This document shows, in pieces, positions 29,129 to 50,439 of a DNA stretch of 64,000 bases. A program made the position numbers and the translations under genes. Position 1 is the stretch's first letter, and each line of letters starts with the position of its first letter. Below the pieces are notes generated by a model. It made no database searches, had not been told where the DNA came from, and saw nothing but the letters and a program-made list of their open reading frames with translations. This DNA comes from Mesorhizobium tianshanense (GTDB lineage: Bacteria; Pseudomonadota; Alphaproteobacteria; Rhizobiales; Rhizobiaceae), in NCBI RefSeq assembly GCF_007830515.1, contig NZ_VLKT01000013.1:62001-126000 (forward strand). The letters run 5' to 3'.

Positions 29129-30031
29129 TCAGTCGATCCTGGCGAATGGAAAATGGTGCTCGCGCCATTCCTGGGGTGCGGGAGACCCCCAGACATTCAT
29201 CTGGCGGACGTTTCCCGGGCGCTCCAGGTTGGTGATGACGTTGGGCACGAAGTGGGCGTCGTCGGCGACCGTGTGCATGGCGCCGGAGCACTCGACCATC
29301 GCGCCGCTGGCATCCAGATAGTAGGCGTAGGTGTTGTCGCCCGGACGATGGCGGCCCGGCCCCCAAAGGACCTGGCGGTCGAACCCGTCGAGAATGTCGC
29401 CAAGCCGGCAATAGTCGCTGAAATGGCTGAACTCGAAAGAGTAGTGGTGAAGCCCGACCGGGCCCTTCACCAGACCCAGAATGTGATGCTGGCGGTTGCC
29501 GCCATGCATCCAGCTCAGCGCCTCGTTGACCATGCGCTCGGTGAGCCGCATGCCGCAGATTTCGGAGAGCTGCTGCCTTGTGGTGACCGGGTCGGGCGTG
29601 ATGAGATTGATGTGGTCGAGACGTCGCGGCTTGATGCCGTTGGTCGGGTAGCGCGGATTGTACATGTCGTCGCGCGCCGGGGTGTGTACCTCGAAGCGCA
29701 GTCCGTCCGGCGTCGCAAAGGTCACGCCGCCATCGCAGCACGCCAGGCTGGGATCGCGCGAGAGGATCCGGCAGCCGGCGCCGTCGACGCGCGAGGCGGC
29801 TTCCGCGACAGCCTCGGCGGTCAGCGCTTCGAGCCCGATCGTGTGGCAGGAATTCTCGTCGGAATGGAGAAGCACGAGTTCTGCCTTGCGGCCGTTCGAG
29901 CTCAGCCATGTCTCGCCCCCCGCCTGCTTGGTGACCCGCAGGCCGAGAATCTCCGTCGAGTCGTGGATCACGGCGTCTACATCACGGACATTCAGCTTTA
30001 TGTGACCGACCCCAAACACCAGGTGCATCAC
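29129..30031 (-). CDS. Type I extradiol ring-cleavage dioxygenase (VOC family)
   Basis: A 300-residue two-domain VOC protein like 2,3-dihydroxybiphenyl or homoprotocatechuate dioxygenases. The second domain supplies the iron ligands: His in RRLDHINLITPD (about 140), His in GLHHYSFEFSHF (about 200) and Glu in GAMVECSGAMH (about 255). It should open a catechol-type ring next to the hydroxyls. A paired CGA motif lies 76-94 bp upstream of its start (30107-30129), suggesting its own regulated promoter inside the operon. Confidence 0.88.
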   Translation of the reverse strand: MMHLVFGVGHIKLNVRDVDAVIHDSTEILGLRVTKQAGGETWLSSNGRKAELVLLHSDENSCHTIGLEALTAEAVAEAASRVDGAGCRILSRDPSLACCDGGVTFATPDGLRFEVHTPARDDMYNPRYPTNGIKPRRLDHINLITPDPVTTRQQLSEICGMRLTERMVNEALSWMHGGNRQHHILGLVKGPVGLHHYSFEFSHFSDYCRLGDILDGFDRQVLWGPGRHRPGDNTYAYYLDASGAMVECSGAMHTVADDAHFVPNVITNLERPGNVRQMNVWGSPAPQEWREHHFPFARID

Positions 30032-30131: not shown

Positions 30132-30980
30132 TTAGAGTGACCGATCCGAGATCACTGTGTTTCGCAGCGTCCCAATGCCCTGGATCTCGATCTCGACCTC
30201 GTCGCCGGGGAACAGGAATTCAGGCGGATTGCGGCTGGCGCCGAAGCCCGATGGCGTGCCTGAAACGATAACGTCGCCAGGGTCGAGCGGAGCAAAGGTC
30301 GAGATGTAGGAGATGAGCCAGGGGATATCGAAGATCATCCGGTCGATCGCAATCGACTGCCTGGTTATGCCGTTGACCCGGCTCTCCAGAAGGAGCCGCG
30401 CCGGATCCGGGATCTCGCGCGTGCAGACCATCCAAGGGCCGAACGCTCCGCTATGGTAGAAGTTCTTTCCGGGCGTGAACTGGCTCGAGTGCTTCTGCCA
30501 GTCGCGCACGCTCCCCTCGTTGAAGCATGCATAGCCGGCGACGTACGCCATCGCTTCGCCGCGCGCGATCTTGTGTGCGCGGCGGCCGATGATCACCGCC
30601 AACTCACCCTCGAAATCCAGCTTGTCGGAAACCGCCGGCTTCAGGATCGCGCCTCCATGGCCGGTCTGTGCTTGCGCGTGGCGCATGAACAGCAGCGGGA
30701 ACTGCGGCGCCGGCTTGTCATCCTCGTGGAAGTTAGTGGCGACGCAGAAGATCTTGCCTGGGTTGGGAATTGGCGGCAGCAGGCTGACTTCAGCCAGCGG
30801 CAAGGCTTCGAGATCGCGTTCATCGGGCGTGAGGTCGGGAAACCGGCTCTCGAGATAGGCTGTGAGATCCGGCGGCGCGCCGGGAACGGAATCCAGCCGC
30901 AGGATGATTCTACCGTCGACCATTCCGTAGCCGGCACCGTTGCGTTCAACGAAAGAAGCGAATTTCAAAGGCTCACCCAT
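30132..30980 (-). CDS. Fumarylacetoacetate hydrolase family protein
   Basis: 282 residues with the FAH C-terminal catalytic fold: KIFCVATNFHEDD, then DFEGELAVIIGRRAHKI (the Glu-x-Glu metal site, about 128), FNEGSVRDWQKHSSQFTPGKNF, and DVIVSGTPSGFG near the end. In meta-cleavage pathways such enzymes act as 2-hydroxy-dienoate hydratases, 4-oxalocrotonate decarboxylases or isomerases. First gene of the minus-strand operon. A paired CGA motif is found at about 31034-31057 upstream. Confidence 0.88.
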   Translation of the reverse strand: MGEPLKFASFVERNGAGYGMVDGRIILRLDSVPGAPPDLTAYLESRFPDLTPDERDLEALPLAEVSLLPPIPNPGKIFCVATNFHEDDKPAPQFPLLFMRHAQAQTGHGGAILKPAVSDKLDFEGELAVIIGRRAHKIARGEAMAYVAGYACFNEGSVRDWQKHSSQFTPGKNFYHSGAFGPWMVCTREIPDPARLLLESRVNGITRQSIAIDRMIFDIPWLISYISTFAPLDPGDVIVSGTPSGFGASRNPPEFLFPGDEVEIEIQGIGTLRNTVISDRSL

Positions 30981-31168: not shown

Positions 31169-31262
31169 AACTATGCGACCACCGATCTGGCCTCGGGAGG
31201 AGGCCCATGTGCGCGCCGAAAAGCTCGGCCTGCACTGGTTTGAGCGAACGGGAGGTATCGAC

Positions 31263-32384
31263 GTGACAGCAATTCCGCAGACGATGAAGGCCGCGCGCAT
31301 GCACGAGATCGGCGGCCAGCTGAGGATCGAGGAAGTGCCGGTCCCGAAGCTTGGGTCGATGGACGTGCTCGTTCGCGTCAGATCGTGTGGCATCGTGCCG
31401 AACCTCGCCAACATCCTGGCGATGTGGCCGACCTGGTTTCCCCACATGCCGCAGCCGCCGCTGCCAGCGATCTTCGGCCTCGACCCGACCGGCGAGATCG
31501 CGGCAGTCGGCAGCCAGGTCCACAGTCTGAAGCCCGGCGATCGGGTCTACGTCAATCCGGGGCGCTCCTGCGGCTCTTGCCGTCATTGCCGGCGCGGCGA
31601 CACAATCTCTTGCCGCCACTACGCCTTCCAGGGCTATTTCGGCTTCAGCCATGAAGCGCTTCAGACATTCGAGGACTACCCGGTCGGCGGCATTTCCGAG
31701 TACATGGCCGCGCCGGCATCGGCGATCGTGGCGCTGCCCGACAACATGACCTTCGATCAGGCGGCACGGCTCGGCTACATGGGCACCGGCTATTCCGCTC
31801 TGAAGAAGGCGCAGGTCGGCCCCGGCGACACGATCCTTGTCAATGGCATCTCCGGCACGCTCGGCATATCGATCGCGGTGTTCGGTCCGTCGTTCGGGGT
31901 CAAGAAGATTCTCGGCACCGGTCGCGACAGGAAGCTGCTGAAGGAGATCGAAGCGCTGGCGCCCGGCATCATCGAGACACATTCGCTGGACGACGGATCG
32001 CCCGACGAATGGGCCCGTTCCAGGACGGAGCATGGCGAGGGGGTCGACGCCTTCATCGACTGCAACGGTCCCGGCACGCCGCAAGAGCCTTTCCTGGCGG
32101 GCCTGAGGGCGCTGCGCCGCGGCGGTATCGCCGTCGACATCGGCGCCGTGATGGGCGCGGTTCCCATCGACGTGCACATGATGATGGACCGGAACCAGCG
32201 TCTCATCGGTTCGGCATGGCTGACGACTGCCGAGGGTCAGGAAATGGCCGACCTCGTCGGGATCGGCAAGGTCAGCTTCGATCTCCTGGAAACCCAGGCG
32301 ACGCCCATGAGCAAGGTCAATGAGGCCATTTCGGGCATCGCCCAGCGCCATGGCGGGTTCTCGAATTTTGTGATCCATCCGTAA
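31263..32384 (+). CDS. Zinc-type alcohol dehydrogenase family protein, paralogue of 23002-24111
   Basis: 373 residues, GTG start at 31263 with GGAGG 7 bp upstream. Shares the sequence pattern of the first dehydrogenase: CGIVPNLANILAMWPTWFPH, structural zinc cysteines CGSCRHCRRGDTISC, VNGISGTLGISIAVFG for nucleotide binding, and AIFGLDPTGEI where GHE is expected. The two enzymes may act on successive or alternative alcohol/aldehyde intermediates. An in-frame ATG at 31173 has no ribosome site. Confidence 0.85.
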   Translation: MTAIPQTMKAARMHEIGGQLRIEEVPVPKLGSMDVLVRVRSCGIVPNLANILAMWPTWFPHMPQPPLPAIFGLDPTGEIAAVGSQVHSLKPGDRVYVNPGRSCGSCRHCRRGDTISCRHYAFQGYFGFSHEALQTFEDYPVGGISEYMAAPASAIVALPDNMTFDQAARLGYMGTGYSALKKAQVGPGDTILVNGISGTLGISIAVFGPSFGVKKILGTGRDRKLLKEIEALAPGIIETHSLDDGSPDEWARSRTEHGEGVDAFIDCNGPGTPQEPFLAGLRALRRGGIAVDIGAVMGAVPIDVHMMMDRNQRLIGSAWLTTAEGQEMADLVGIGKVSFDLLETQATPMSKVNEAISGIAQRHGGFSNFVIHP

Positions 32385-34006: not shown

Positions 34007-34102
34007 TTTCCTCCATGCAAATTTTCGATGACCTCTATTTAACCCATCGCATTGCTGAATACACGTCGATTTCGTACCTCGTCTCCCGACAGGGAGGAAA
34101 TC

Positions 34103-35284
34103 ATGAGCGAAGCCGTGAAAGTGGTCGACGACGTTGCGTTCGAAGACCTGCTTGCCAATCCGTATCCGGTCTTCAAGCGCGTCCGCGACCTCGGGCCGGT
34201 CGTGAAGGTCGAGGCGGCCAACATCATGATGGTCACGCGCTTCGACGACATCATGGCCATCGAACGCGACCCCGAGACGTTTTCCTCCGTCAATCCGCAG
34301 TCGCTGCTGAACACGGTGATCGGGCCGAATTTGATGCGCAAGGACGGCGACGACCATGCCCGTGAAAGGGCGGCGATAGATCCGAGCCTGCGGCCCGGCG
34401 TCGTCAAGCGGTGCTGGGCCGATCCCATGCGCGTCATTTGCGACGACGTCATCGCGCAGATCGAGCACAAGGGCGAGGCGGAACTTTTCGAGGACCTCGC
34501 CGCGCCGATCGCGGCGCGTGCGCTGGCCGACATACTGGGTTTCGACGGCGTCGACTGGCGCACGATGGCATTGTGGTCGCAGTCGCTGATCGACGGTTCC
34601 GGCAACTACTCGCACAACCCAGAGATCGCGCGTAAGGCGAAGAAGGCAGCCAGCGGCGTCGAGAGCGCCGTCGACAGGATGCTTCCCCATCATCGGGACA
34701 TTCCAAATCCTTCGATGCTGTCTTCGATGCTCCAGGCCGATCCTCCTCAGACGGTCGAGCAGATCTACGCCAACATCAAGGTCGCGATCGGGGGCGGGCT
34801 GAACGAGACCCGCGACTCGATCCTTACGCTGATCCTTGGCCTGCTGCAGAACCCGGACCAGCTCGCGCGCATTCGCGCCGAGCCTTTGCTCTGGGGGCAG
34901 GCCTTCGAGGAAGCGGTGCGCTGGATCTCGCCGATCGGCATGTATCCGCGCCGCCTGACCCGTGACGTCGAGATCTCGGGGATGCTGGTCCGCAAGGGCG
35001 AGCAGGTCGGTTTGTGCGTCGGCGCCGCCAACCACGACGATCGCCGTTTCAGCGATCCGGAGAAGTTCGACGTGTTCCGGGAAAAGAAGTCCCACCTTGC
35101 GTTCGGCGCCGGATCGCATTTCTGCGCCGGCACCTGGGTGTCGCGCGCGCTGGTGAGCCAGATCGTCGTGCCCACCGTGTTCGAGCGGCTGCGCAATCTC
35201 CGACTCAAGGATCCGGACCGCGTCCGCATCCGCGGCTGGGTGTTTCGTGGCCCCACGCACATGCCCGTCATCTGGGACGTTTGA
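34103..35284 (+). CDS. Cytochrome P450, candidate aryl O-demethylase
   Basis: 393-residue soluble bacterial P450. Heme-binding loop FGAGSHFCAGTWVSRA (Cys about 339), ExxR as EEAVRW (about 275), I-helix GGGLNETRDS keeping the Glu-Thr pair. The C-terminus IRGWVFRGPTHMPVIWDV and the HLAFGAGxHxCAG stretch recall the guaiacol O-demethylase GcoA (CYP255) as I remember it. With ferredoxin and reductase genes directly downstream it forms a three-component class I system. Formaldehyde from demethylation would be handled by the gfa-adhC-fghA genes nearby. Substrate assignment is inference. Confidence 0.9.
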   Translation: MSEAVKVVDDVAFEDLLANPYPVFKRVRDLGPVVKVEAANIMMVTRFDDIMAIERDPETFSSVNPQSLLNTVIGPNLMRKDGDDHARERAAIDPSLRPGVVKRCWADPMRVICDDVIAQIEHKGEAELFEDLAAPIAARALADILGFDGVDWRTMALWSQSLIDGSGNYSHNPEIARKAKKAASGVESAVDRMLPHHRDIPNPSMLSSMLQADPPQTVEQIYANIKVAIGGGLNETRDSILTLILGLLQNPDQLARIRAEPLLWGQAFEEAVRWISPIGMYPRRLTRDVEISGMLVRKGEQVGLCVGAANHDDRRFSDPEKFDVFREKKSHLAFGAGSHFCAGTWVSRALVSQIVVPTVFERLRNLRLKDPDRVRIRGWVFRGPTHMPVIWDV

Positions 35285-35295
35285 GGGAGAGTTTC

Positions 35296-35613
35296 ATGCC
35301 GACGATCAGGTTCCTCCTCGCAGACGGCGCGGAGCTCGCCGTCGAGGCCGAGAGCGGCCGCACCTTGATGGAAACCGCGCTTGAAAACAGCGTTCCGGGC
35401 ATCATCGCCGAATGCAACGGCTCGGCGGCTTGCGCCACATGCCATGTCGTGCTTCCCGAAGACATCATGTCGGCGCTCGGACCCATCAGCGAGCATGAAA
35501 ACGATATGCTGGACTTCGCCGAAGCGCCGCGCGAACCCGGAAGCCGGCTGAGCTGCCAGATCAGGGTCAGCGACGCACTGGACAACGTTTCCGTCCGCAT
35601 TCCGGCCGCCTAG
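35296..35613 (+). CDS. [2Fe-2S] ferredoxin (adrenodoxin type)
   Basis: 105 residues. The cluster ligands are visible as ECNGSAACATCHVVL and LSCQIRV (Cys-x5-Cys-x2-Cys and a distant Cys). SALGPISEHENDMLDFAEAPREPGSRLSCQ is typical of P450-partner ferredoxins. Lies 11 bp after the P450 stop and 15 bp before the reductase gene, so the three are co-transcribed and functionally linked. Confidence 0.95.
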   Translation: MPTIRFLLADGAELAVEAESGRTLMETALENSVPGIIAECNGSAACATCHVVLPEDIMSALGPISEHENDMLDFAEAPREPGSRLSCQIRVSDALDNVSVRIPAA

Positions 35614-35628
35614 CCGTTTGGGCTGATC

Positions 35629-36888
35629 ATGTCCCTTGATGCCGATCATCCCGCCGCGGCCATACCCGGCAACGAAAGCAGCATCCTGATCGTCGGCGCC
35701 GGGCAGGCCGGCCTATTCACGGCCGAAAAGCTGCGGGCGAACGGCTTCGCGGGATCGCTCACCTTGATCGGGGACGAGCCCGATGCTCCCTACCAGCGTC
35801 CTCCGCTGTCGAAGGCCTATCTTCTCGGCGAACTCGAGCGGGACCGGTTGAAGCTGAAAGCGGAGGACTGGTACGCGAAGAACCGGATCGCGTTGCGACT
35901 GGGAACGCGCGTCGCATCCATCGATCGCGCCCGGCAGTGTGTATGTCTGGCCGATGGCACCATGCTTGCCTACGACCGTCTCGTGCTCGCAACCGGAGCG
36001 ACCGCCCGAAAGCTTCCGCAGGCGATCTCGCGCGGCCTGGCTGGCATCTTCACGATCCGCACACTCGCCGATATCGATGCGTTGCGGCCGGCGCTCGAAA
36101 CGAACGGCAAGCTCCTTGTCGTCGGCGGTGGGTACATCGGGCTCGAGATCGCCGCCGTCGCGCGTGGGCTCGGCATGACAGTAGATGTCGTGGAAGCCTC
36201 CGATCGCCCGCTCGCACGGGTGGCTTCGGCGGAAACGGCGAGGGCTGTGGAAGACCTTCACCGGTCCAGGGGCGTGACGTTCCATCTCGGCAAGGCAGTG
36301 AGCGAGTTGCTCGGCGCTGATCGCGTTACTGGCGCCAGGCTCGGCGACGGCACGATCATTGCCGCCGACGTCGTCGTGGCGGGAATCGGCGGCATGCCGC
36401 AGACGACGTTGGCCGCAGAGGCGGGTTTCGCTATCGACAACGGTATCGCTGCCGACGCGTACGGGCGCACGGGCGATCCGTTCATCTGGGCTGCTGGTGA
36501 CTGCGCCAACTTCTCCTTGCCGGGAGGAGGGCTGCGGATGGAGAGCGTCGGCAACGCGATCGACAGCGCCGACCTGGTCGCTCGCAACATCATGGGCGCG
36601 CGCCAGCCCTACAAGCCGAAGCCGTGGTTCTGGTCGGATCAGTTCGATCTCAAGCTGCAGATCGCCGGCCTGTCCAGGCCGGGCGATACGGTGGTTGTCC
36701 GGCAGGGAGCGGGATCGGGACGGTCGCACTGGTACTACCGCGAGGGGCAGTTCGTCGCCGTCGATGGGCTGAACGCGCCGCGCGACTATCTGATTGGAAA
36801 GCGCCTCCTTGCCGTGTCGGCCAGCCCCGACCCCGCTCAGGTCGCGGATCCGGTGCTGGCGCTCGAAGCTCTGGCGAGCTCGAAATGA
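35629..36888 (+). CDS. FAD-dependent ferredoxin reductase
   Basis: 419 residues of the putidaredoxin/rhodocoxin reductase type. Two dinucleotide folds: ILIVGAGQAGLFTAEKLRANG for FAD (about 21-41) and LLVVGGGYIGLEIAAVARGLG for NAD(P)H (about 163-183), then DPFIWAAGDCANF for the FAD ribityl site. Transfers electrons from NAD(P)H to the adjacent ferredoxin for the P450. Confidence 0.93.
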   Translation: MSLDADHPAAAIPGNESSILIVGAGQAGLFTAEKLRANGFAGSLTLIGDEPDAPYQRPPLSKAYLLGELERDRLKLKAEDWYAKNRIALRLGTRVASIDRARQCVCLADGTMLAYDRLVLATGATARKLPQAISRGLAGIFTIRTLADIDALRPALETNGKLLVVGGGYIGLEIAAVARGLGMTVDVVEASDRPLARVASAETARAVEDLHRSRGVTFHLGKAVSELLGADRVTGARLGDGTIIAADVVVAGIGGMPQTTLAAEAGFAIDNGIAADAYGRTGDPFIWAAGDCANFSLPGGGLRMESVGNAIDSADLVARNIMGARQPYKPKPWFWSDQFDLKLQIAGLSRPGDTVVVRQGAGSGRSHWYYREGQFVAVDGLNAPRDYLIGKRLLAVSASPDPAQVADPVLALEALASSK

Positions 36889-37262: not shown

Positions 37263-38471
37263 ATGTTGCGACGCAGTTTCAATGTACTCATGCTTTCGGC
37301 GGCATTGGCGGTTGGCACGTTCGGCGCCGCCATGGCGCAGGACCCGGTCAGGATCGGCGTCAGCGCTTCCAAGACAGGGCCGCTCGCGGGCGGCGCGTCA
37401 GGTGTGCTTTGGCCGAACATCAAGCTGTGGGTCGAGAAAGTGAACAAGGCCGGCGGCCTCAAGGTCGGCGATCAGATGCGGCCGATCGAGATCGTCGAAT
37501 ATGATGACAAGTCAACGCCGGAAGAGGCTGTCAAGAACATCCAGCGTCTCGCCACCCAGGACAAGGTCGACCTGATCATTCCGCCCTATTCGACGGGTCT
37601 CAATCTCGCGACCGCCCCGCTGATCGCGAAATATGGCTACCCGCAGATCGTCTCCACCGGCAATGCCAACGATCTCGAGCAGTTCGTCAAGCGTTGGCCG
37701 AACACGTTCTGGCTGCTCGGCAAGGCGCAGGGCATCGCCGACGGCATCGTCGGCACGCTCAAGGATTTGCACGACGCTGGCAAGATCGGCAACCGGGTCG
37801 CGGTGGTCAACGTCTCCGATGCCTTCGGCCTCGAGATGATCAAGACCGGCAAGCCCGCGCTCAAGCAGGCCGGTTTCGATATCGTCTACGAAAGCTCCTA
37901 TCCGCTCGGCAATCAGGACCTCGCTCCGGTGATAGCAAGCGCCAAGGCGGCGAATCCCGACGCCTTCATCGCCTACTCCTACCCGCCGGACAGCTTCGCT
38001 CTCACCGAGCAGGCGCAGTTGCAGAAGTTCGACGTCAAGGCGTTCTTCGTCAGTGTTGGCGGCAATCTCAACGCCTACGGAAAGCGCTTTGGCGCCGCTG
38101 CCAACGGGGTCCTGATCATGGGCGGCGTCAATGCCAGCGATCCCGTCTTCCAGGCCTATCGCAAGGAGCACCTCGAGGTGACGGGCCAGGAAGCCGATTG
38201 GTGGGCGAGCCCGGTAGCCTATGCCAGCCTGGAGATCCTGCAGCAGGCCGTCGAGCACGTCGGCAGCCTGGACAAGAAAGCGCTCAACAAGGAAATCCAG
38301 TCGGGCACCTTCAAGACCGTCATCGGCGATGTCCACTTCGAGAACAACATCAACAACAACAACTGGACGGTGGCCCAGTGGAACGACGGCGTCGTGCATG
38401 GCGTCAGGGCGACCGGCAACCTCCAGGGCGCGCAACAGCCGGTGCTCAAGCCCGCCTGGCCCAGCAACTGA
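37263..38471 (+). CDS. Branched-chain-type ABC transporter substrate-binding protein
   Basis: 402 residues with a signal peptide (MLRRSFNVLMLSAALAVGTFGAAMAQ) and the Leu/Ile/Val-binding fold (PVRIGVSASKTGPLAGG at the start of the mature part, then DDKSTPEEAVKNIQRLATQDKVDLI). Periplasmic receptor of the ABC importer encoded just downstream. The context among aromatic genes makes an aromatic acid a better guess than an amino acid. Confidence 0.93.
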   Translation: MLRRSFNVLMLSAALAVGTFGAAMAQDPVRIGVSASKTGPLAGGASGVLWPNIKLWVEKVNKAGGLKVGDQMRPIEIVEYDDKSTPEEAVKNIQRLATQDKVDLIIPPYSTGLNLATAPLIAKYGYPQIVSTGNANDLEQFVKRWPNTFWLLGKAQGIADGIVGTLKDLHDAGKIGNRVAVVNVSDAFGLEMIKTGKPALKQAGFDIVYESSYPLGNQDLAPVIASAKAANPDAFIAYSYPPDSFALTEQAQLQKFDVKAFFVSVGGNLNAYGKRFGAAANGVLIMGGVNASDPVFQAYRKEHLEVTGQEADWWASPVAYASLEILQQAVEHVGSLDKKALNKEIQSGTFKTVIGDVHFENNINNNNWTVAQWNDGVVHGVRATGNLQGAQQPVLKPAWPSN

Positions 38472-38531
38472 TCCGATCCTCCCGGCGGCTTGGCGTCCTC
38501 GTGACACCGGGCTAGTGACTGCGAGAGTACA

Positions 38532-39398
38532 ATGCTCATCCTGCTGACAGGCCTGCTCCTTGGGGGCACCTATACGCTCATCGCGCTCGGGCTGACGCTC
38601 CAGTACGGCGTGGCGCGGATAATGAACCTCGCCAATGGCGAGACGCTCGTTGCCGCGTGCTTCGTCACCTTCTGGCTGTATACGGGCTTCGGGATCAATC
38701 CGCTGCTGGGCCTGCTGGTGATCGGCCCCGTCGCCTTCGTCGTCAACTGGCTGATCTACACCTGGCTGATGCAGCCACTGGTGAAGCGGGCCAGGAATCG
38801 CGGCATGCTCGAGGTCGATTCCATCCTGGCGACCTTCGGGCTGCTGTTCCTGTTCCAGGGGCTGATGCTGCAGGCATTCGGCGGGTCCTACTTCAACTAC
38901 GAGTTCCTCGCCCAGCCCTTCTCGATCATGGGAAACTCGTTCGGTCTGAACCGTGTCGTGGCCTTTGTCGCCGCCGCCGTGATCGCGGTGGCTCTCTACA
39001 CCTTCCTCTACCACACCGACCGCGGCACGGCCGTTCGCGCCGTCGCCGTCGATCCGCGCGCCGCAATGCTCGTGGCGATCGATGTGCGCAAGACCGCGGC
39101 ATTCGCCTTTGCGCTCGGAGGAGCGATCACGGCCTGCGCCGGCACGCTGCTGTCTACCTTCTACACGTTCAACACCTCGATGGGCGTGATCTTCACCATG
39201 AAGGCGCTGATCATCGTCATCATGGGCGGCGTCGGTGACGTTCGCGGTGCGGTTCTCGCCGCTCTCGTCCTGGGCGTGACCGAGACGCTGGTCGCCAGCC
39301 TGCTGGACCCCGGACTGACGCTGGCGGCCAACTACGCCCTCTTCATCGTCGTTCTGCTGTTCCGGCCGCAGGGCATCTTCGGAAAGCGGCCGGCATGA
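38532..39398 (+). CDS. LivH-type ABC transporter permease
   Basis: 288 residues, about eight membrane segments. LLTGLLLGGTYTLIALGLTLQYGVARIMNLANGE is the typical LivH start. Inner-membrane subunit of the importer. Its stop overlaps the start of the LivM gene (ATGA). Confidence 0.93.
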   Translation: MLILLTGLLLGGTYTLIALGLTLQYGVARIMNLANGETLVAACFVTFWLYTGFGINPLLGLLVIGPVAFVVNWLIYTWLMQPLVKRARNRGMLEVDSILATFGLLFLFQGLMLQAFGGSYFNYEFLAQPFSIMGNSFGLNRVVAFVAAAVIAVALYTFLYHTDRGTAVRAVAVDPRAAMLVAIDVRKTAAFAFALGGAITACAGTLLSTFYTFNTSMGVIFTMKALIIVIMGGVGDVRGAVLAALVLGVTETLVASLLDPGLTLAANYALFIVVLLFRPQGIFGKRPA

Positions 39399-40366
39399 TG
39401 AACATCCCGCGCAAAGAACTCCTGGCTCTTGGTGCCGGCCTTGCCGGCGTGGCCGTGCTGGCCTTCCTGCCCTTGGTGACCGAGGGATTCTGGCTGTCGC
39501 TCAGCGTGAACATCATGCTCTATGCCGCCATATGTACGGCCTGGGCGCTCTTTTCCGGGCCGACGCATCTTGTCTCGCTGGCGAGCGCCGCCTTCTTCGG
39601 AGTCGGAACCTACTCGGTCGCGATCTTCATCGACGTCCTGCCTTTCCCGGCGCTTATCCTCATCGCGGTCGTCGCCGGCGCCTTGCTGGCCACACTGGTC
39701 GGATTGGCGACCCTCAGGCTCTCGGGGGTCTATTTCGTGATCTTCACCCTCGGCCTTGCCGAACTCCTCGGCCAGATCGTGACCTGGGTGCAGACCAATT
39801 TCGGCGGCACGATCGGGCTCTACGTCTTTACCGATTTCACCGAGACGCATCTCTATTGGATGCTGCTCGCGCTGACGGTGGTCGTGTTCGTCACCGGATG
39901 GCTCATCAACAGGTCGAGGCTGGGTCTCGCCTTGCGCATCATCGGCAATGACGAAGCCGTGGCGCGCCATGTCGGCGTCGACACCGCTCGGACCAGGGTC
40001 ATCCTGTTCGCTGTCTCGGGGGCCTTCATTGCCGTAGCCGGCGCGATCATGGCGCCTCGCTACGGCTACATCACGCCGGATGCAGCGTTTAACCCGATGA
40101 CGTCCTTCCTCGTGGTCATCATGGCGCTGCTCGGTGGCACCCGCCGCCTTTGGGGTCCCCTGGTCGGCGTCGTTCCTTTCACCGTGGTGATGGACTTTAT
40201 CTCTGGCCACTTCCCGAACCAGACGGCGGTGATCATGGGACTCGCATTTCTGGCGATCGTCTATGTGCTTCCCGACGGCGTCACGGGCCAGCTGGAAACC
40301 CTGTTCCGTCGCCGCCGCTCCATCGACAAAAGCCTGCTGGCAGCGTCCGCCGAGGAGGGCAGATGA
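39395..40366 (+). CDS. LivM-type ABC transporter permease
   Basis: 323 residues, membrane-spanning throughout, with the LivM pattern AALFSGPTHLVSLASAAFFGVG replaced here by AWALFSGPTHLVSLASAA and SRLGLALRIIGNDEAVARHVGV. Second permease of the importer. Two adjacent ATG codons (39395 and 39398) are possible starts; both overlap the end of the LivH gene. The next gene overlaps by ATGA. Confidence 0.93.
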   Translation: MMNIPRKELLALGAGLAGVAVLAFLPLVTEGFWLSLSVNIMLYAAICTAWALFSGPTHLVSLASAAFFGVGTYSVAIFIDVLPFPALILIAVVAGALLATLVGLATLRLSGVYFVIFTLGLAELLGQIVTWVQTNFGGTIGLYVFTDFTETHLYWMLLALTVVVFVTGWLINRSRLGLALRIIGNDEAVARHVGVDTARTRVILFAVSGAFIAVAGAIMAPRYGYITPDAAFNPMTSFLVVIMALLGGTRRLWGPLVGVVPFTVVMDFISGHFPNQTAVIMGLAFLAIVYVLPDGVTGQLETLFRRRRSIDKSLLAASAEEGR

Positions 40367-41094
40367 GCGTTCCTCTCCTGACCATCAATCGGGTACGCAA
40401 AGCCTTCGGCGGCCTTGTCGCCGTCAACGACGTGAGCTTCGAAGTCGCCAAGGGCGAACTGTTGGGACTGATTGGTCCGAACGGCTCTGGCAAGACCACG
40501 ATGCTCAATCTTATATCGGGCGCGCTATCCCCGACATCGGGCAATATCCTGCTGTCCGGTCAGAACATCGCTGGACGCCCGGCCCACAAGCTCGCCCGCA
40601 TCGGGGTCGCCCGAACCTTCCAGCTGGTGCGCGTCCTGCCGTCGATGAGCGCGCTGGAGAACGTCATCGCCGGCGCCGTCTTCGGGCACAACAGGCTTTG
40701 GGGTGCCGAAGCGCTGGCGCTAGCCCGCGTTCTGCTGGAGCGGGTCGGGTTGAAAGGCCGCGAGGAGGTTCCCGTCGCGGCCATGACCTATATCGACCAG
40801 AAGAGGATCGAGCTCGCCCGTGCCCTTGCGGGAAACCCGCATGTTCTGCTGCTCGACGAATGGCTCGCCGGCCTCAACCCCAGTGAGTTGAGGGTCGGCA
40901 TAGAACTCATCCGCGAGATCAGCGAACAGGGTCGGACGATCATCATGGTCGAGCACGTGATGGATGCCATCCGTTCGCTTTGTTCACGCTGCGTGGTCAT
41001 GAATTCAGGCACGAAGATCGCCGATGGCAGGTCGGCCGATGTCCTGGCCGATCCGGATGTCGTCCGCGCCTATCTGGGAGACGACCATGCTTGA
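40363..41094 (+). CDS. LivG-type ABC transporter ATP-binding protein, altered signature motif
   Basis: 243 residues. Walker A is GPNGSGKTT (about 38-46). The ABC signature, normally LSGGQ or LSYGQQ, reads AMTYIDQKRIELARAL, and Walker B reads VLLLDEWLAGLNPSE with Trp after Glu. Substituted signatures occur in a known subgroup of these transporters. Overlaps LivM by 4 bp and LivF by 8 bp. Confidence 0.92.
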   Translation: MSVPLLTINRVRKAFGGLVAVNDVSFEVAKGELLGLIGPNGSGKTTMLNLISGALSPTSGNILLSGQNIAGRPAHKLARIGVARTFQLVRVLPSMSALENVIAGAVFGHNRLWGAEALALARVLLERVGLKGREEVPVAAMTYIDQKRIELARALAGNPHVLLLDEWLAGLNPSELRVGIELIREISEQGRTIIMVEHVMDAIRSLCSRCVVMNSGTKIADGRSADVLADPDVVRAYLGDDHA

Positions 41095-41812
41095 GGTGTC
41101 CAATCTCGGCGTCCGCTACGGTCGGCACGTCGCGCTCGACGGTGTTTCCGCACATGTTTCCAAGGGCGAGATCTGCGTTATCCTGGGCGCCAACGGCGCT
41201 GGAAAGTCCAGCTTCCTCGGCGCCGTCGCAGGGCTTGTCGGCACGGAGCCCGGCACTAGCATCGTCATGAACGGCAAGGATGTCACGAAACTCGACGCCC
41301 ATCTGATGGTGGAGGAGGGGATCGCGCTGGTTCCGGAAGGTCGAGGCATCTTTGGCGAACTCACCGTGGCGGAGAATCTGCGGCTTGGAAGCCATGCTAG
41401 GCGCGCGAAAGCCGATGCGGGCAAGATGCTTGATTTCGTCTACGGCCTGTTCCCCCGGCTTGCCGAACGCCCTCGCCAGCTGGCGCAGACCATGTCCGGT
41501 GGCGAACAGCAGATGGTGGCGATCGGCAGGGCGCTGATGTCCAAGCCGGACATCCTGATGCTGGACGAGCCCTCCCTCGGTCTGTCGCCGCTGCTGTCCA
41601 AGGAGCTGTTCAAGTCACTGGCCATCATCGCCGCCGAAGGTTTCGGCATCCTGCTGGTCGAGCAGAACGCGCGGCTGAGCCTGAGGACCGCCGATCGCGG
41701 CTACCTGATCGAAACGGGAAGGATCGTCGGAGAGGACACGGCGCCAAACCTGCTCAAAGATCCAAAGGTCATGAGCGCTTACCTCGGCGACGCCGCGGCG
41801 GCAGCGCATTAG
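41087..41812 (+). CDS. LivF-type ABC transporter ATP-binding protein
   Basis: 241 residues with regular motifs: Walker A GANGAGKSS, signature MSGGEQQMVAIGRAL, Walker B ILMLDEPSLGLSP. Partner of the LivG-type subunit. Last gene of the five-gene import operon, 47 bp before the SRPBCC-gfa gene. Confidence 0.93.
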   Translation: MLEVSNLGVRYGRHVALDGVSAHVSKGEICVILGANGAGKSSFLGAVAGLVGTEPGTSIVMNGKDVTKLDAHLMVEEGIALVPEGRGIFGELTVAENLRLGSHARRAKADAGKMLDFVYGLFPRLAERPRQLAQTMSGGEQQMVAIGRALMSKPDILMLDEPSLGLSPLLSKELFKSLAIIAAEGFGILLVEQNARLSLRTADRGYLIETGRIVGEDTAPNLLKDPKVMSAYLGDAAAAAH

Positions 41813-41859: not shown

Positions 41860-42826
41860 ATGCGCTTGCTTGAAACCGAGATCGTCATCGACGCGCCGCC
41901 GCAGATCGTGTGGGCCGTGCTGGATGACATCGAGCGCTACCCCGAATGGAATCCGGCCTTGCCGGCGCTACGCGGGCGCACGACCGTCGGTCAACGGGTC
42001 GTCGGGACGCTGCGCCAGCCCCAATGTTCCCGAGCGCGAGGTCACGCCGACCATCACCCGCATCGTGGGCGCGCGGGAACTGCGCTGGCTGAGCCAGGCG
42101 CCTGGCGGTGTGTTCAGCGCGGAACACATTTTCATCCTGGAGCCGACCGGGAATGGTGGCACGCGGGTGCGCCACAACGAGATCTTCGACGGTCCGATGG
42201 CGGACGAGCGCTGGCCCAGCATCGATACCAATCTGCGAACCGCCTATCACGACTTGAACCGCGCGCTGAAGGCGCGGACGGAGGCGTTACGCAGCGAGAC
42301 GGTCAAGCTACACCCGGCCGTCGTGCGGGATATATCCACTTCGCCGCTCGGCGCGTTCACTGCGCGCTGCAAATGTGCCAGCGAGCCGGTGGAGATCGCG
42401 GTGGATCAGGCCGTGGCACACAGTCATCTGTGCGGCTGTTCGAAATGCTGGAAGCCCGCCGGTGCCGCCTTCGCGCAGATCGCGGTCGTGCCGGCGGGCT
42501 GCGTCGAGGTGAAGGCGCATGGCGAAAAGCTCGAGGCCGTGGACGCCACGCAGAAGATCGAACGCCACCGCTGCAGGTCCTGCGGGACGCATATGGTTGG
42601 CAAGGTGTCCGACCCGGATCACCATTTCTACGGCCTTGAATTCGTGCATCCCGAACTGGCGACGGATGAGCACCAGCCAAAGATTGAGTTCGCGGCCTTT
42701 GTGTCTTCGCTCGTCGAGACCGGGATGCCGGCGACCGCGATGGTCGCCGTGCGCAATGCGCTGGGCGAGGCCGGGGTTCCAGCCAACGACGCATTCTCAC
42801 CTGAACTGATGGACATCATCGCCTAG
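41860..42826 (+). pseudogene. gfa: SRPBCC domain fused to glutathione-dependent formaldehyde-activating enzyme, one frameshift
   Basis: The first 54 codons (LETEIVIDAPPQIVWAVLDDIERYPEWNPALP) are the start of an SRPBCC lipid/aromatic-binding domain. The frame then breaks at a run of four C (42019-42022); one base fewer restores it (VPEREVTPTITRIVGARELRW). The same restored frame runs on, without stop or new start codon, into a full Gfa domain from VKLHPAVV (about 42301). It has ARCKCASEPVEIAV, HSHLCGCSKCWKPAG and HRCRSCGTHMVG as zinc cysteines, ending PELMDIIA. Gfa makes S-hydroxymethylglutathione from formaldehyde. Next to adhC and fghA it completes that pathway. Whether Gfa is still translated is unclear. 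Confidence 0.8.
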
Positions 42827-42936: not shown

Positions 42937-43983
<1,047 letters not shown>

Positions 43984-44139
43984 CCGTCTTGCGCGATACG
44001 CCCGCGTTGAAGGCCCTGTGTTCTTAAAATGCTGGTGTCGCCCCGACATCGGGCAACCTGATCCACCAGGGTTGCCGCGGCTGCGGCCGATGCCGTAGAT
44101 GGCTATCATTGGCGCTTGAAATTGGTGGAGAAGGACTAC

Positions 44140-44994
44140 ATGCCGAAACCCATGAAGACCATCTCCCAGGCAAAATCCCATGGCGGGGTGCAGGGCGTCT
44201 ATTCGCACCTGTCGACGAGTTGCTCTTGCGACATGACGTTTGCCGTTTTCGTGCCGCTACAGGCCCGGGAAACGCCTTGCCCGGTGGTGTGGTATTTGTC
44301 GGGACTGACCTGCACGCATCAAAATGTCATGGACAAAGGCGAATACAGGCGCATGGCCGCCGAACTTGGCCTGATCGTCGTCTGTCCTGACACCAGTCCG
44401 CGCGGCGCCGACATTCCTGACGACAAGGACAATTGGCAGTTTGGCTGCGGCGCCGGTTTCTATCTGGATGCGACGCAAGTCCCCTATGCGAAGAACTACC
44501 GCATGTATTCCTACGTCGTCGAGGAACTGCCCGCCCTGATCGCGGCGAATTTTCCAGCGGACATGTCGCGCCAAGCCATAACCGGCCATTCAATGGGCGG
44601 ACACGGCGCACTGACGATTGCGTTGAAAAATCCGCAGCGGTTCAGGAGCTGCTCGGCCTTCGCGCCGATCGTGCAGCCAAGCACAGCCGGCTGGTCGAAG
44701 CCAGCCTTCGAAAAATACCTCGGCATGGATGAGGCCTCGTGGCGATCCTATGACGCTACTTCGCTTATCGAGGACGGGCACCGCTTTCAGGAAGTTCTCG
44801 TCGACCAGGGGACATCGGACGGGTTCCTGAATGACGGGCTAAGGCCCTGGCTCCTGGAGGCGGCCTGCACCAAGGCCGGCATTCCGCTGAAACTGCGCAT
44901 GCAGGATGGGTACGATCACTCGTATTTCTTCATTTCGACCTTCATGGACGATCATCTGCGCTGGCACGCTGAGAGGCTGTCGTCCCATGGCTAA
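44140..44994 (+). CDS. fghA: S-formylglutathione hydrolase
   Basis: 284 residues of the esterase D family: TFAVFVPLQA, WYLSGLTCTHQN (oxyanion region), nucleophile Ser in ITGHSMGGHGALTIALKNP (about 149), DQGTSDGFL and the late His in DGYDHSYFFISTF. Hydrolyses S-formylglutathione to formate and glutathione, the last step of the formaldehyde route. The ATG at 44140 is chosen for its GGAGAAGG; an ATG at 44152 (MKTISQAKSHGG) is an equally plausible family start. Confidence 0.93.
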   Translation: MPKPMKTISQAKSHGGVQGVYSHLSTSCSCDMTFAVFVPLQARETPCPVVWYLSGLTCTHQNVMDKGEYRRMAAELGLIVVCPDTSPRGADIPDDKDNWQFGCGAGFYLDATQVPYAKNYRMYSYVVEELPALIAANFPADMSRQAITGHSMGGHGALTIALKNPQRFRSCSAFAPIVQPSTAGWSKPAFEKYLGMDEASWRSYDATSLIEDGHRFQEVLVDQGTSDGFLNDGLRPWLLEAACTKAGIPLKLRMQDGYDHSYFFISTFMDDHLRWHAERLSSHG

Positions 44995-45114: not shown

Positions 45115-45849
45115 ATGGGCAACACCCTCAAGCCCGCCGGGGAGACACGCGCCGGGGATGTGTTGGCGCGCATGCGGAGCGATATCATTAGTTGCGCCTT
45201 GAAGCCGGGGACAAAGCTGCGCTTCGAGACACTCAGGGAGTTGTATGAAGTAAGCTTTTCTACCCTGCGCGAGGCCCTCTCGCGGCTGGTGGCCGAAGGT
45301 CTGGTCGTGGCGGAGGGGCAGCGTGGTTTCCTGGTCGCGCCGGTCTCGCTCTTCGATCTCAACGATCTGACGGATGTCCGCGTGCTCGTCGAACGGCAGT
45401 GCATCAAGCTGGCGATCGATCGTGGCGACGATCGCTGGGAGGCGGACATCATGGCCGCCTTCCACCGGATGGACCGGCTGCAAAGCCGGCTTGGGGCGAG
45501 CTACTATCTCTCCGACGAATGGGCCACGTTGCACAGTGCTTTCCACCTTTCGCTGGTCGCGGCATGCGGCTCGCCCAATCTGCTCGAGATCCGGCAGAAG
45601 CTCTTCGAGCGCGCCCACCGCTACCGCAGGATGTCCTCGCAGTTTCGCCCGCAATGGCGCGCAAAGGACGTCGAGCACAAGATGATCATGGATCGGGTGA
45701 TCGCCCGCGACACCGCCACGGCGCAGGATCTGGTCGACCGACATATCCGCGAGACGACCGAGAACGTCATTGCTCATGCAAGCCATCTTTTCGCGCAAGG
45801 TGGGGCCGGCGATGCTTTCAGGCGTCCGGATCCCGTGGCCGCAGAGTAG
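45115..45849 (+). CDS. GntR family transcriptional regulator (FadR subfamily)
   Basis: 244 residues. N-terminal winged helix (AGDVLARMRSDIISCALKPGTKLRFETLRELYEVSFSTLREALSRLVAEGLV, about 13-64) and a C-terminal all-helical FCD ligand domain with FHLSLVAACGSPNL and HKMIMDRVIARD. Often regulates organic acid or aromatic catabolism. It follows the formaldehyde genes on the same strand after a 120-bp gap. An AT-rich partial palindrome near 45060-45105 may be its operator. Confidence 0.88.
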   Translation: MGNTLKPAGETRAGDVLARMRSDIISCALKPGTKLRFETLRELYEVSFSTLREALSRLVAEGLVVAEGQRGFLVAPVSLFDLNDLTDVRVLVERQCIKLAIDRGDDRWEADIMAAFHRMDRLQSRLGASYYLSDEWATLHSAFHLSLVAACGSPNLLEIRQKLFERAHRYRRMSSQFRPQWRAKDVEHKMIMDRVIARDTATAQDLVDRHIRETTENVIAHASHLFAQGGAGDAFRRPDPVAAE

Positions 45850-47573: not shown

Positions 47574-47611
47574 TTGACATACCGTATGTTTTTTAGATAC
47601 TAGATGGTATC
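47574..47611 (+). promoter_or_regulatory. Promoter with overlapping GATAC-type operator (site 4)
   Basis: TTGACA at 47574-47579, 17 bp, then ATACTA. The palindrome GATACTAGATGGTATC (47596-47611) covers the -10. It lies between the membrane protein gene and the NMT1-type gene, directed towards the latter. Confidence 0.75.
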
Positions 47612-47723
47612 TCAAATTGTATGCGCCTGTCAATGTGCACGGCATCACGGCCGTAGAACCGAACCGCATCTCGCCAGACAGAGGCCGGTGCCTGCGCTGG
47701 AAGTTTTAAGGGAGGATATCGCC

Positions 47724-48650
47724 ATGACTGACCAGGAACCTGCCGGCCTCGCCGATCTTCGGCTCGCGGGCGGCGCGCAGGGGTTCAACTGGCTTCCTGT
47801 CTTCGTCGCCGACGAACAGGGCCTTTTCGAAAAGCACGGCATCCGGATCGACTACAAGCGCATGGGCAGCGTCGAAAAGGCGACCGCGGCCGTTCTCGAC
47901 GGCGAAGCGGATCTGGCGATTACGCCGCCGGAAGGCGCCGTTGCCGACTTCGTCAGGGGAGGAGAGCTGCGTATCGCGGCAGCCAACGCCGTGCGCTTGC
48001 CGATGTCCATTGTTGCGCGCCCGGGCATCGGCTCGCTTGCCGAACTGAGGGGCAAGAAGGTCGGCACGTCCTCGCTGACGGAGGGCACCGCGATCTACAC
48101 GCAGATCATGCTGGCCGCGGCAGGGCTGCACTATCCCGGCGACTACGAGTTTGCCCTGGCCGGCATTCACACCAAGCGGTGGGAGGCGCTGCAGGCCGGC
48201 GAAATCGACTGTGCTCCGCAGCCCGCGCCGTGGAACTTCCTCGCACAGGACAAGGGCTACAACCTGCTCGGGGAAGTCAGTGCCGCGATCCCCGAGATCG
48301 TCTTCACCGCCGTCATCGGCAAGGCTTCCTGGCTCGGCGCGAACCGCGATCTCGTGACCCGCTTCCTCAAGGCGCTGATCGAAGCGCATGCGGTCACCAA
48401 CGACGCGGCCAGCCAAGGCATCACCCTGCCGATCTTCCAGCGCATCACCACACCCGACAGCGAATCCCTGGCGCGACGGGGATTGGAATATATGCGCGAC
48501 ATGGGCATGTGGCCGTGGGGCCTTGCCGTGCCAGGCAAGGCGCTCAAGACGACGATTGACTTGATGGTCAGGGCGAACCTACTCGACGAGTCGAAGCGCG
48601 GCACGGCCGAAGGCGCGTTCGAGAAGCGCTATCTGGAAGGCGCCGCCTGA
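47724..48650 (+). CDS. NMT1/THI5-like substrate-binding-fold protein without signal peptide
   Basis: 308 residues of the SsuA/NMT1 periplasmic-binding fold (NWLPVFVADEQGLFEKHGIRIDYKRMGS, then DLAITPPEGAVADFVRGGELRIAAAN, KKVGTSSLTEGT). The start at 47724 has GGGAGG 8 bp upstream and gives no export signal. No cognate permease lies nearby. It may be a cytosolic enzyme using this fold; 4,5-dihydroxyphthalate decarboxylases are a known case. A mis-exported or sensor role is also possible. Controlled by GATAC site 4. Confidence 0.8.
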   Translation: MTDQEPAGLADLRLAGGAQGFNWLPVFVADEQGLFEKHGIRIDYKRMGSVEKATAAVLDGEADLAITPPEGAVADFVRGGELRIAAANAVRLPMSIVARPGIGSLAELRGKKVGTSSLTEGTAIYTQIMLAAAGLHYPGDYEFALAGIHTKRWEALQAGEIDCAPQPAPWNFLAQDKGYNLLGEVSAAIPEIVFTAVIGKASWLGANRDLVTRFLKALIEAHAVTNDAASQGITLPIFQRITTPDSESLARRGLEYMRDMGMWPWGLAVPGKALKTTIDLMVRANLLDESKRGTAEGAFEKRYLEGAA

Positions 48651-48704: not shown

Positions 48705-48896
48705 CTATGCGTTGGAGGATCGGTAGGCGATTGCAGCCGGCCGCCAATTGCCCCGTTCCTCCAGCCACTTCGCCGTGTTGCTGATGCCGCCGAACGGAAA
48801 GACGTGCAGCTGCTCGATGGCTGAACCGGGATGGGCCCGCACGTGGTTCTCGACGGGGCCAACGAAGCTCTCGGGCGAATGGATTGGTGCAGCGAA
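48705..48896 (-). pseudogene. C-terminal remnant, methylenetetrahydrofolate reductase-like
   Basis: About 63 codons in frame to a stop at 48705-48707, reading GPVENHVRAHPGSAIEQLHVF then PFGGISNTAKWLEERGNW. This resembles the C-terminus of the MetF-type reductases found next to LigM-type O-demethylases. A stop codon precedes it in frame, and no N-terminal part is present. Identification is by pattern and context only. Confidence 0.45.
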
Positions 48897-49055
48897 GCGT
48901 CAGAAGATGCTCTTTCATCCGTCTGGGTTCCCGCGGTCGCTTTGCACACAGCCATTTCGTCTGCGGCCTCGATGTCGAGGCCGCATTCCAAGGTGATCTG
49001 GACATGCTTGGCAGCCGGCAGCTCGATCCGAGCCGTGCCGGCATCGGTCAGCCTG

Positions 49056-50439
49056 TCAGTGCTTGCCGGTCTTGATGACCTTGTCGAAGTAAGGAGCCGG
49101 AGCGACCTTTGCCCTGATCTGGCGGACCTGATGCTTCTCCACCGTGTTGCGGCGCGACTCCGGCTCGCCCCAGAGAAGCGTGACCTCCGTTTCCGGTTGC
49201 GCGTGCTCGAGGTCGACAAGCCCCAGCGAGATGAAGCGGTTGGCGTTTGCCGTGAAAGACGGCCAGGTCGAGATGCCCGCAACCTTGCCCTTCCTCATGA
49301 CGGCATCGACCTGGAATGTCGCATACATGGGGATCGGCATATTGAGGAACTTGGCGGGCGTCCCGTTGGCCGGGAAGATGGAGTCCCGCATCACGGCGGC
49401 CGCATCCTCGTCGTTCCACACAAGCGTCACCTTCGTGCGGCGCTGGTTGTTAGCCTTCTCGAGCAAGGTGTCTCGGCCGATGAAGTCGCGGCCAAAGTCG
49501 ATCACGTTCCTGTAGCCGAGCTCGATCGGATCGACATAGTAGTCCGTGATGTCGTCCGACACGAAACTGCCGCCAAGTGAGGCGACCGACTCCAGGAAGT
49601 AGCTGTTCAGCCACTCGCGGTAGGGCTTCATGTCGTCGCCGTGATAGATGGCCGGCAACGGCATCGGCACCCAGCCGGACTCCTGCGCGGTGGTCGAGTA
49701 GGCGAGTGCGCCGATCTTGCGCAGGCCGTGCTTCTCGCTGGCCTTCTCCAGTGCCTCGCGCACCGCCTGTTGGTCGTCCCAGGCTCCGTAGATCTCGAAT
49801 CCAGGTTCGCCGGCCATGCCGTGCCGCAGGGCGCGGACGGGTTTCCCGGCGATCTTGAACTCACCGATGTTGAAGAACTTGATCTCCGGCAGGCTGCCGC
49901 CCGTCACCTCACGCATCAGCGCGAGGGCGTTCGGCCCTTGGATCTGGACGCGGAATACCTCGCGGGTGCCGGAGCGGATCGAGAAATTGTCGTCCTTTTT
50001 CGCCTCCACGTCGTAGTTGCTCTTCTCCGCGTTGTAGAGCACCCAGTCGCTGGCGAAGGGAGCGCCGACGATGCGGAAGAAGTCCTCGGCTTCCCGGAAA
50101 ATGATGGCGTCGGCGATGTAGTATCCGTCATGGCCCGCCAGCACGAGTTGTTTGGCGCGCAGGACCGGAAACGGGTCGAACTTGTTGACCGCGACCTCCG
50201 ACAGGAAGGGAATGACCTGCGAGTCCGCGCAGGTGCAGTTCGGTCATGTGATAGGACTGCTCGAGCAGTGCGCAGCCATCCTTCCACGCACGCACTTCGT
50301 CTCGCCAGTTCGTGAACTCCGGCGGAATGACGGGAAAGCGGTACGGCCCGAGGTTGGAGCCGCGAAGCAGATTTACCGGACCTCCCGCTGCATCCAGGAT
50401 GCTCTCGAGGCTCTTCGGCGTCTCATTCGTCATTGCCAT
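49056..50439 (-). pseudogene. LigM/DesA-like aminomethyltransferase-fold O-demethylase, one frameshift
   Basis: Tetrahydrofolate-dependent demethylases of this GcvT-like family move the methyl group of vanillate or syringate to THF. The N-terminal frame (ATG 50439 after GGAGGAAG) gives NLGPYRFPVIPPEFTNWRDE and YHMTELHLRG, then breaks near 50219-50225. The next frame continues DSQVIPFLSEVAVNKFDPFPVL and runs to 49056, with FRVQIQGPNALALMREVTGG, VRALRHGMAGEPGFEIYG, SGWVPMPLPAIYHGDDMKPY and VTLLWGEPESRRNTVEKH. Total length 1384 bp, not a multiple of three. One base is missing or the gene is dead. Confidence 0.85.

Follow-up and report, generated by a model that had tools for sequence, protein, structure and literature searches.

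Among THF-dependent aromatic O-demethylases (THF, tetrahydrofolate), the closest described counterparts of the locus reported here are LigM, the vanillate/3-O-methylgallate O-demethylase of Sphingobium SYK-6 (PDB 5tl4 and 5x1i), and DesA, a syringate O-demethylase. In SYK-6, ligM is part of a ligM-metF-ligH operon (PMC6888825), an arrangement resembling the ligM-metF-purU order of Rhizobium anhuiense. The wider family also includes the THF-dependent dicamba demethylases Dmt, Dmt50, and Dmt06. The corresponding report states that Dmt and Dmt50 produce 5-methyl-THF and are inhibited by it, and that Dmt06, for which it gives the accession ON828423, shares approximately 70–98% identity with proteins from Rhizobiales, Mesorhizobium, Rhizobium, Microbacterium, and other taxa (PMC9404685), a taxonomic spread like that of the clade described below. 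BrdA and SesA, other members of the wider family, are described as THF-dependent demethylenases (PMC5547118), and redundant demethylases within one strain are reported for Novosphingobium (PMC8091115). A different chemistry is represented by the aromatic O-demethylase cytochromes P450 GcoA and SyoA. Here, both chemistries were compared with a locus of Mesorhizobium tianshanense located in a window of 64,000 nucleotides (contig NZ_VLKT01000013.1, positions 62,001 to 126,000 of the forward strand; Table 1). For this Mesorhizobium locus, no publication was found among the top-ranked literature matches.

Table 1. Coordinates of the LigM/DesA-like locus and neighboring genes within the window
Feature	Position	Strand	Basis
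Extradiol ring-cleavage dioxygenase (catechol 2,3-dioxygenase-like, under the cut-off of that model)	29129..30031	-	Model match, frame check
Fumarylacetoacetate hydrolase family protein	30132..30980	-	Domain match, frame check
Zinc alcohol dehydrogenase family protein	31173..32384	+	Domain match, frame check
Cytochrome P450, full length	34052..35284	+	Nearest solved chains; frame check in four genomes
2Fe-2S ferredoxin	35272..35610	+	Domain match
Ferredoxin reductase (presumed family name), full length in four genomes	35629..36888	+	Frame check
Branched-chain amino acid type ABC transporter genes (presumed, except the binding protein)	37263..41812	+	Binding protein by search; others by position and presumed family
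SRPBCC-Gfa gene (formaldehyde-activating; SRPBCC name presumed), frame broken near 42019	41860..42826	+	Model match, relatives
Glutathione-dependent formaldehyde dehydrogenase lacking 81 bases (27 codons) at 43296/43297	42937..43983	+	Relatives, model match
S-formylglutathione hydrolase (presumed name), full length	44116..44994	+	Frame check
GntR-type regulator	45115..45849	+	Domain match, frame check
NMT1/SsuA-like substrate-binding protein, recurring near ligM-like genes	47604..48650	+	Domain match, comparison of loci
C-terminal remnant of a MetF-like reductase, approximately profile positions 244-286 of 291	48705..48899	-	Profile match, shuffle test
LigM/DesA-like THF-dependent demethylase gene (GcvT fold), broken frame	49056..50439	-	Profile matches, alignment of relatives, PDB search
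Frame-break site, one extra base relative to three relatives, near 50223	50219..50225	-	Alignment with relatives

The LigM/DesA-like gene does not form a single intact reading frame. Its N-terminal frame starts at 50439, runs for 72 residues, and is abandoned near 50223, and the remainder, up to the stop at 49056, is read in a different frame. Both pieces matched the same two NCBIfam models in successive profile stretches: the N-terminal piece corresponded to DesA positions 1-63 (67.3 bits) and LigM positions 1-62 (65.9 bits), and the 362-residue open reading frame at 49056-50144 (minus strand) covered DesA positions 94-446 (DesA, 396.8 bits; LigM, 342.4 bits). Alignment with the syntenic genes of M. 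waimense, M. kowhaii, and M. amorphae placed one extra base, present in the window only and outside any homopolymer, at approximately 50223, which agrees with the single frameshift proposed near 50219-50225 in the initial annotation of the window. The 362-residue piece exceeded the cut-off of PF01571, the aminomethyltransferase folate-binding domain (95.4 versus 25.6 bits), and its match to the C-terminal barrel PF08669 stayed under the cut-off (15.5 versus 25.9 bits). Its nearest solved chains were those of LigM (5x1i and 5tl4; E 8e-86, residues 7-353). By PF01571, the gene is thus a member of the GcvT-like THF-dependent demethylase superfamily, for which methyl or methylene transfer to THF is predicted.

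Curated cut-offs separated the gene from both named enzymes. The intact orthologue of M. waimense found its best NCBIfam model in DesA (NF047633) with a score of 508.3 bits, far under the cut-off of 800, and its score of 449.9 bits on LigM (NF047885) was also under the cut-off of 580; the window gene is a paralogue, related to LigM and DesA while belonging to neither by these cut-offs. In an alignment that included the window gene, all 17 rows with at least 59% identity retained the equivalents of Tyr31, His60, and Tyr247 of LigM, and all 17 carried Ala at the position equivalent to Arg122, unlike LigM; the residue numbers and roles, including that of the catalytic Tyr, are those which we assume for LigM as mapped onto this clade. 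A literature search returned nothing for LigM with Y247. The locus also differs from that of LigM in its surroundings, as an intact metF beside the ligM-like gene was not found in any of five Mesorhizobium loci (the window, M. waimense, M. kowhaii, M. amorphae, and Mesorhizobium sp. L-8-3), where there was either no match or a scrap only, and in that the window gene itself is broken.

The scrap in the window is a 64-residue open stretch downstream of the ligM-like gene, ending at the stop codon 48705-48707. Its match to a MetF profile of 291 positions spanned 244-286, near the natural C-terminus, these positions being those of a first profile in which two rows were wrong-strand open reading frames. 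After the profile had been rebuilt with 10 proteins in the correct orientation, the score of the tail was 24.1 bits, a value reached by none of 2000 shuffles (best shuffle, 7.9 bits), supporting the earlier proposal of a MetF-type tail over the possibility of a sequence unrelated to MetF. The tail was absent from the Pfam and NCBIfam results (57 residues submitted, E up to 0.1), and the MetF catalytic core was not found in the scrap, as the match was confined to the positions given above. A possible N-terminal metF remnant just past the ligM stop (3.1 bits, a score equaled or exceeded by 5 of 2000 shuffles) amounts to a hint only. The same metF scrap, further decayed, was observed in M. waimense, and no such scrap was present in M. 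kowhaii and M. amorphae. Because M. waimense keeps an intact ligM beside its decayed metF, metF was lost before ligM, and the remnant common to the window strain and M. waimense supports the erosion of a ligM-metF locus. A perfect inverted repeat with arms of 10 bases and a loop of 2 bases occupies 48963-48984, in the interval that separates the metF scrap from the ligM stop; conserved in M. waimense and almost so in M. amorphae, it is perhaps a terminator or the boundary of the scrap.

Within the genus, 11 of 146 genomes, including that of the window, had a match with an E-value no higher than 1e-30. Orthologues at 92–96% identity were restricted to M. waimense ICMP19557, M. kowhaii Ach-343, and M. 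amorphae CCBAU 01570, and the remaining genus matches showed 38–45% identity, indicating that the ligM-like gene is patchy accessory material. The gene was unbroken in M. waimense and M. kowhaii, as was a relative at 84% identity in Mesorhizobium sp. L-8-3. In M. amorphae, it carried an extra base of its own (locus L035, 5278-6676) at a different place from that in the window, so that two of the four syntenic copies have been broken independently. Comparison of the window gene with its three relatives yielded dN/dS ratios of 0.075–0.103 (Nei-Gojobori, 460 codons), which indicate purifying selection on the gene that lasted until recently or is still acting, and hence that the break is either recent or an error. 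The window was syntenic with the relatives between approximately 23.9 and 50.45 kb, where the left boundary is the edge of the stretches compared; approximately 25.4-27.1 kb of the island is missing from M. kowhaii, in addition to further small gaps. Nine genes of the island, out of ten compared and with the second substrate-binding protein left out of the count, were of full length in all four genomes (those for the P450, ferredoxin reductase, catechol 2,3-dioxygenase-like protein, fumarylacetoacetate hydrolase, alcohol dehydrogenase, ABC binding protein, S-formylglutathione hydrolase, GntR regulator, and YceI); compared with these, ligM, broken in two of the four, could be undergoing specific loss.

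The P450 of the island was closest to the solved chain 6g71 (E 1e-96), followed at a considerable distance by 8u09 (E 4e-53), which we take to be SyoA, and by GcoA entries (E 4e-52). Unlike the GcoA/SyoA systems, it has a separate 2Fe-2S ferredoxin and reductase as neighbors, and its O-demethylase activity is putative. The literature search returned nothing for the P450 name CYP1232A24; a P450 search of the whole genome gave nine matches, the window P450 included. The description of the P450 and formaldehyde route as mostly intact was accurate in part: the P450, ferredoxin reductase, and formylglutathione hydrolase are of full length and the ferredoxin is present, but two genes of the formaldehyde branch are damaged. 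The SRPBCC-Gfa gene, whose frame is intact in the three relatives, contains an extra base within a run of C at 42019. The formaldehyde dehydrogenase gene lacks 81 bases that are present in all three relatives, its two model matches (profile positions 1-119 and 147-368) being directly adjacent in the DNA, and this loss may have rendered the enzyme inactive. Taken at face value, the assembly shows erosion at several sites of the island. Binding proteins of the NMT1/SsuA-like type, 61–63% identical, were also observed near ligM-like genes at other loci (L048, L049, L051, and L052) in Phyllobacterium, Microbacterium, Sphingobium, and Naasia.

A search of the remaining genome for an intact copy, suggested with the initial annotation, identified an unbroken metF-ligM-C23O-PIG-L-LigK-tautomerase cluster on another contig (C4). 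Its LigM scored 748 bits against the equivalog cut-off of 580 and keeps the Arg that is replaced by Ala in the clade of the window gene. The accompanying enzymes also exceeded their cut-offs (catechol 2,3-dioxygenase, 324.6 versus 320.2; LigK aldolase, 370.7 versus 304.5; 4-oxalomesaconate tautomerase, 530 versus 440), with the PIG-L protein encoded between the dioxygenase and LigK. The MetF-like protein of the cluster was above the Pfam cut-off (PF02219, 36.2 versus 24 bits) but far under that of the NCBIfam MetF equivalog (44.8 versus 293.7), and a stronger MetF match of 295.7 bits was located on contig C78. An intact formaldehyde dehydrogenase was encoded on contig C2 (594.7 versus 543.95 bits). 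With 40% identity to the window gene, the LigM of the cluster is a paralogue and not a spare copy; THF-dependent demethylation is nevertheless kept in the genome by this separate intact metF-ligM pair, its enzyme activity being predicted from sequence.

Considering the lesions in the assembly, the synteny, the intact relatives, the intact second pair, and the order of losses, all of which were observed, we regard it as the probable explanation that an accessory catabolic island, in which THF-dependent demethylation worked in partnership with a P450, is undergoing ordinary erosion. The locus would be the end at which such an island of Mesorhizobium, serving the catabolism of a methoxylated aromatic compound, is being eroded, with both the substrate and the joint pathway suggested by the neighboring genes. 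Judging from its family, an intact LigM-like enzyme would pass an O-methyl group to THF, whereas the adjacent P450, ferredoxin, and reductase would remove a methyl group as formaldehyde, and the two systems may act in one pathway or on different methoxy groups, as partners rather than as successor and predecessor. The adjacent metF would have been lost first, in an ancestor common to the window strain and M. waimense, after which ligM would have remained under purifying selection, probably supplied in trans by MetF made elsewhere. One extra base would later have broken ligM in the window strain, where the formaldehyde dehydrogenase and SRPBCC-Gfa genes were presumably damaged as well. A slight non-synonymous excess in the window lineage counts against this explanation: the codon changes found only in the window comprised 24 synonymous and 8 non-synonymous ones (8 of 32 changed codons), compared with 31 and 5, 24 and 7, and 23 and 5 in the three relatives (5 of 36, 7 of 31, and 5 of 28). 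The possible specific loss of ligM and the low score of the MetF-like protein from contig C4 on the NCBIfam equivalog also count against it.

A less probable but still appreciable explanation is that the ligM break is an assembly or sequencing error, the gene being intact in the organism and only metF truly lost. The genome is a draft of 7.86 Mb in 159 contigs, and as it was available as an assembly without reads, the break in ligM, that in SRPBCC-Gfa, or both may be errors. The strong purifying selection on the ligM-like gene and the presence of a single lesion in it would fit such an error, as would the second single-base break in the run of C at 42019; however, the extra base of ligM is outside any homopolymer, and the 81-base deletion in the formaldehyde dehydrogenase gene points to real erosion nearby. 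A badly faulty assembly was not favored as a general explanation either. Three split aldehyde dehydrogenase loci were counted in the window genome (contigs C11, C47, and C109), against one in M. waimense, two in M. kowhaii, one in M. amorphae, and three in a fourth relative (G076), one of these being a single-contig genome; these counts exclude loci with one partial piece (C77 here, C11 in M. kowhaii, C74 in M. amorphae, and two in G076). Split aldehyde dehydrogenases are thus about equally common in the four relatives, so that the window assembly does not stand out as particularly faulty. When the same genome was searched for ABC_tran, the best 150 of 405 candidates contained no inner stops, which says little, as only the best were scored. 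Provided that the extra base is not an assembly error, the claim of a decaying demethylation branch is fair with respect to the locus, given the metF remnant shared with M. waimense and the breakage of ligM in two of the four copies.

The more far-reaching proposal of the same annotation, that P450 and formaldehyde chemistry has been replacing THF-dependent demethylation, appears highly improbable. It accords with the damage to ligM and metF beside an intact P450, ferredoxin, and reductase, and with the independent break of ligM in M. amorphae, yet the metF-ligM pair on contig C4 is intact, metF was lost before ligM, and the formaldehyde genes of the window are damaged too. The suggested comparison with relatives also spoke against replacement: M. 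waimense and M. kowhaii hold both an intact ligM-like gene and an intact P450 gene in the same island, and in R. anhuiense T24 a transporter and, approximately 8 kb on, a P450 come after an annotated ligM-metF-purU set. Since THF-dependent chemistry survives elsewhere in the genome and close relatives have both chemistries, erosion rather than replacement is indicated, and it affects both branches of the island. Caution is therefore needed, as a broken gene in one draft genome should not be read as the replacement of a pathway.

The role of metF was further considered across the clade. Among the 16 loci with at least 59% identity, metF was directly downstream in three and approximately 4.4 kb off in one, and 12 had no match at E 1e-8 in the flanks examined, two of the loci (L042 and L043) having identical proteins; a linked metF is thus commonly absent in the clade of the window gene. 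Rhizobium and Agrobacterium rows with a linked metF formed one starred group in the tree, and the Mesorhizobium rows were among those without a linked metF, on an unstarred branch. In Agrobacterium, approximately 11 kb separate the ligM-metF pair from genes for an SRPBCC protein and a formaldehyde dehydrogenase. The frequent absence of metF (12 of the 16 loci), together with the demethylenases BrdA and SesA described in the wider family, would fit a reading in which the LigM-like enzyme of this clade acts as a demethylenase, opening methylenedioxy rings and transferring a methylene rather than a methyl group to THF, in which case MetF would never have been essential to it. We consider this reading very doubtful, as the Rhizobium and Agrobacterium members adjoin metF and the window holds a metF remnant. 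The Tyr aligned with the presumed catalytic Tyr of LigM is kept, which discriminates neither a demethylase nor a demethylenase.

Beyond the erosion that we favor for the window locus, a broader scenario can be put forward as a speculation, unlikely as a whole, in which the LigM-like clade of Mesorhizobium, Phyllobacterium, Rhodobacteraceae, and Microbacteriaceae has come to do without a linked MetF and, in Mesorhizobium, operates within an island that also encodes a formaldehyde-releasing P450. The enzyme would then be either one half of a demethylation pathway with two chemistries or a methylenedioxy-opening enzyme feeding methylene-THF, and the metF scraps in two Mesorhizobium species would be the record of the switch. 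Most members of this LigM-like clade have no linked MetF, and those of Mesorhizobium are neighbors of P450 and formaldehyde genes; the clade is the one lead worth an assay.

Two minor observations concern more distant homologs. Near-identical ligM-like genes with 47% identity to the window gene were present in the Microbacterium strains SDZm4 and BR1 (L055 and L056). Haloarchaeal ligM-like genes (L054 and L057) were located directly before genes matching MetF at 25–29% identity, so that the ligM-metF pairing seems to extend to archaea.
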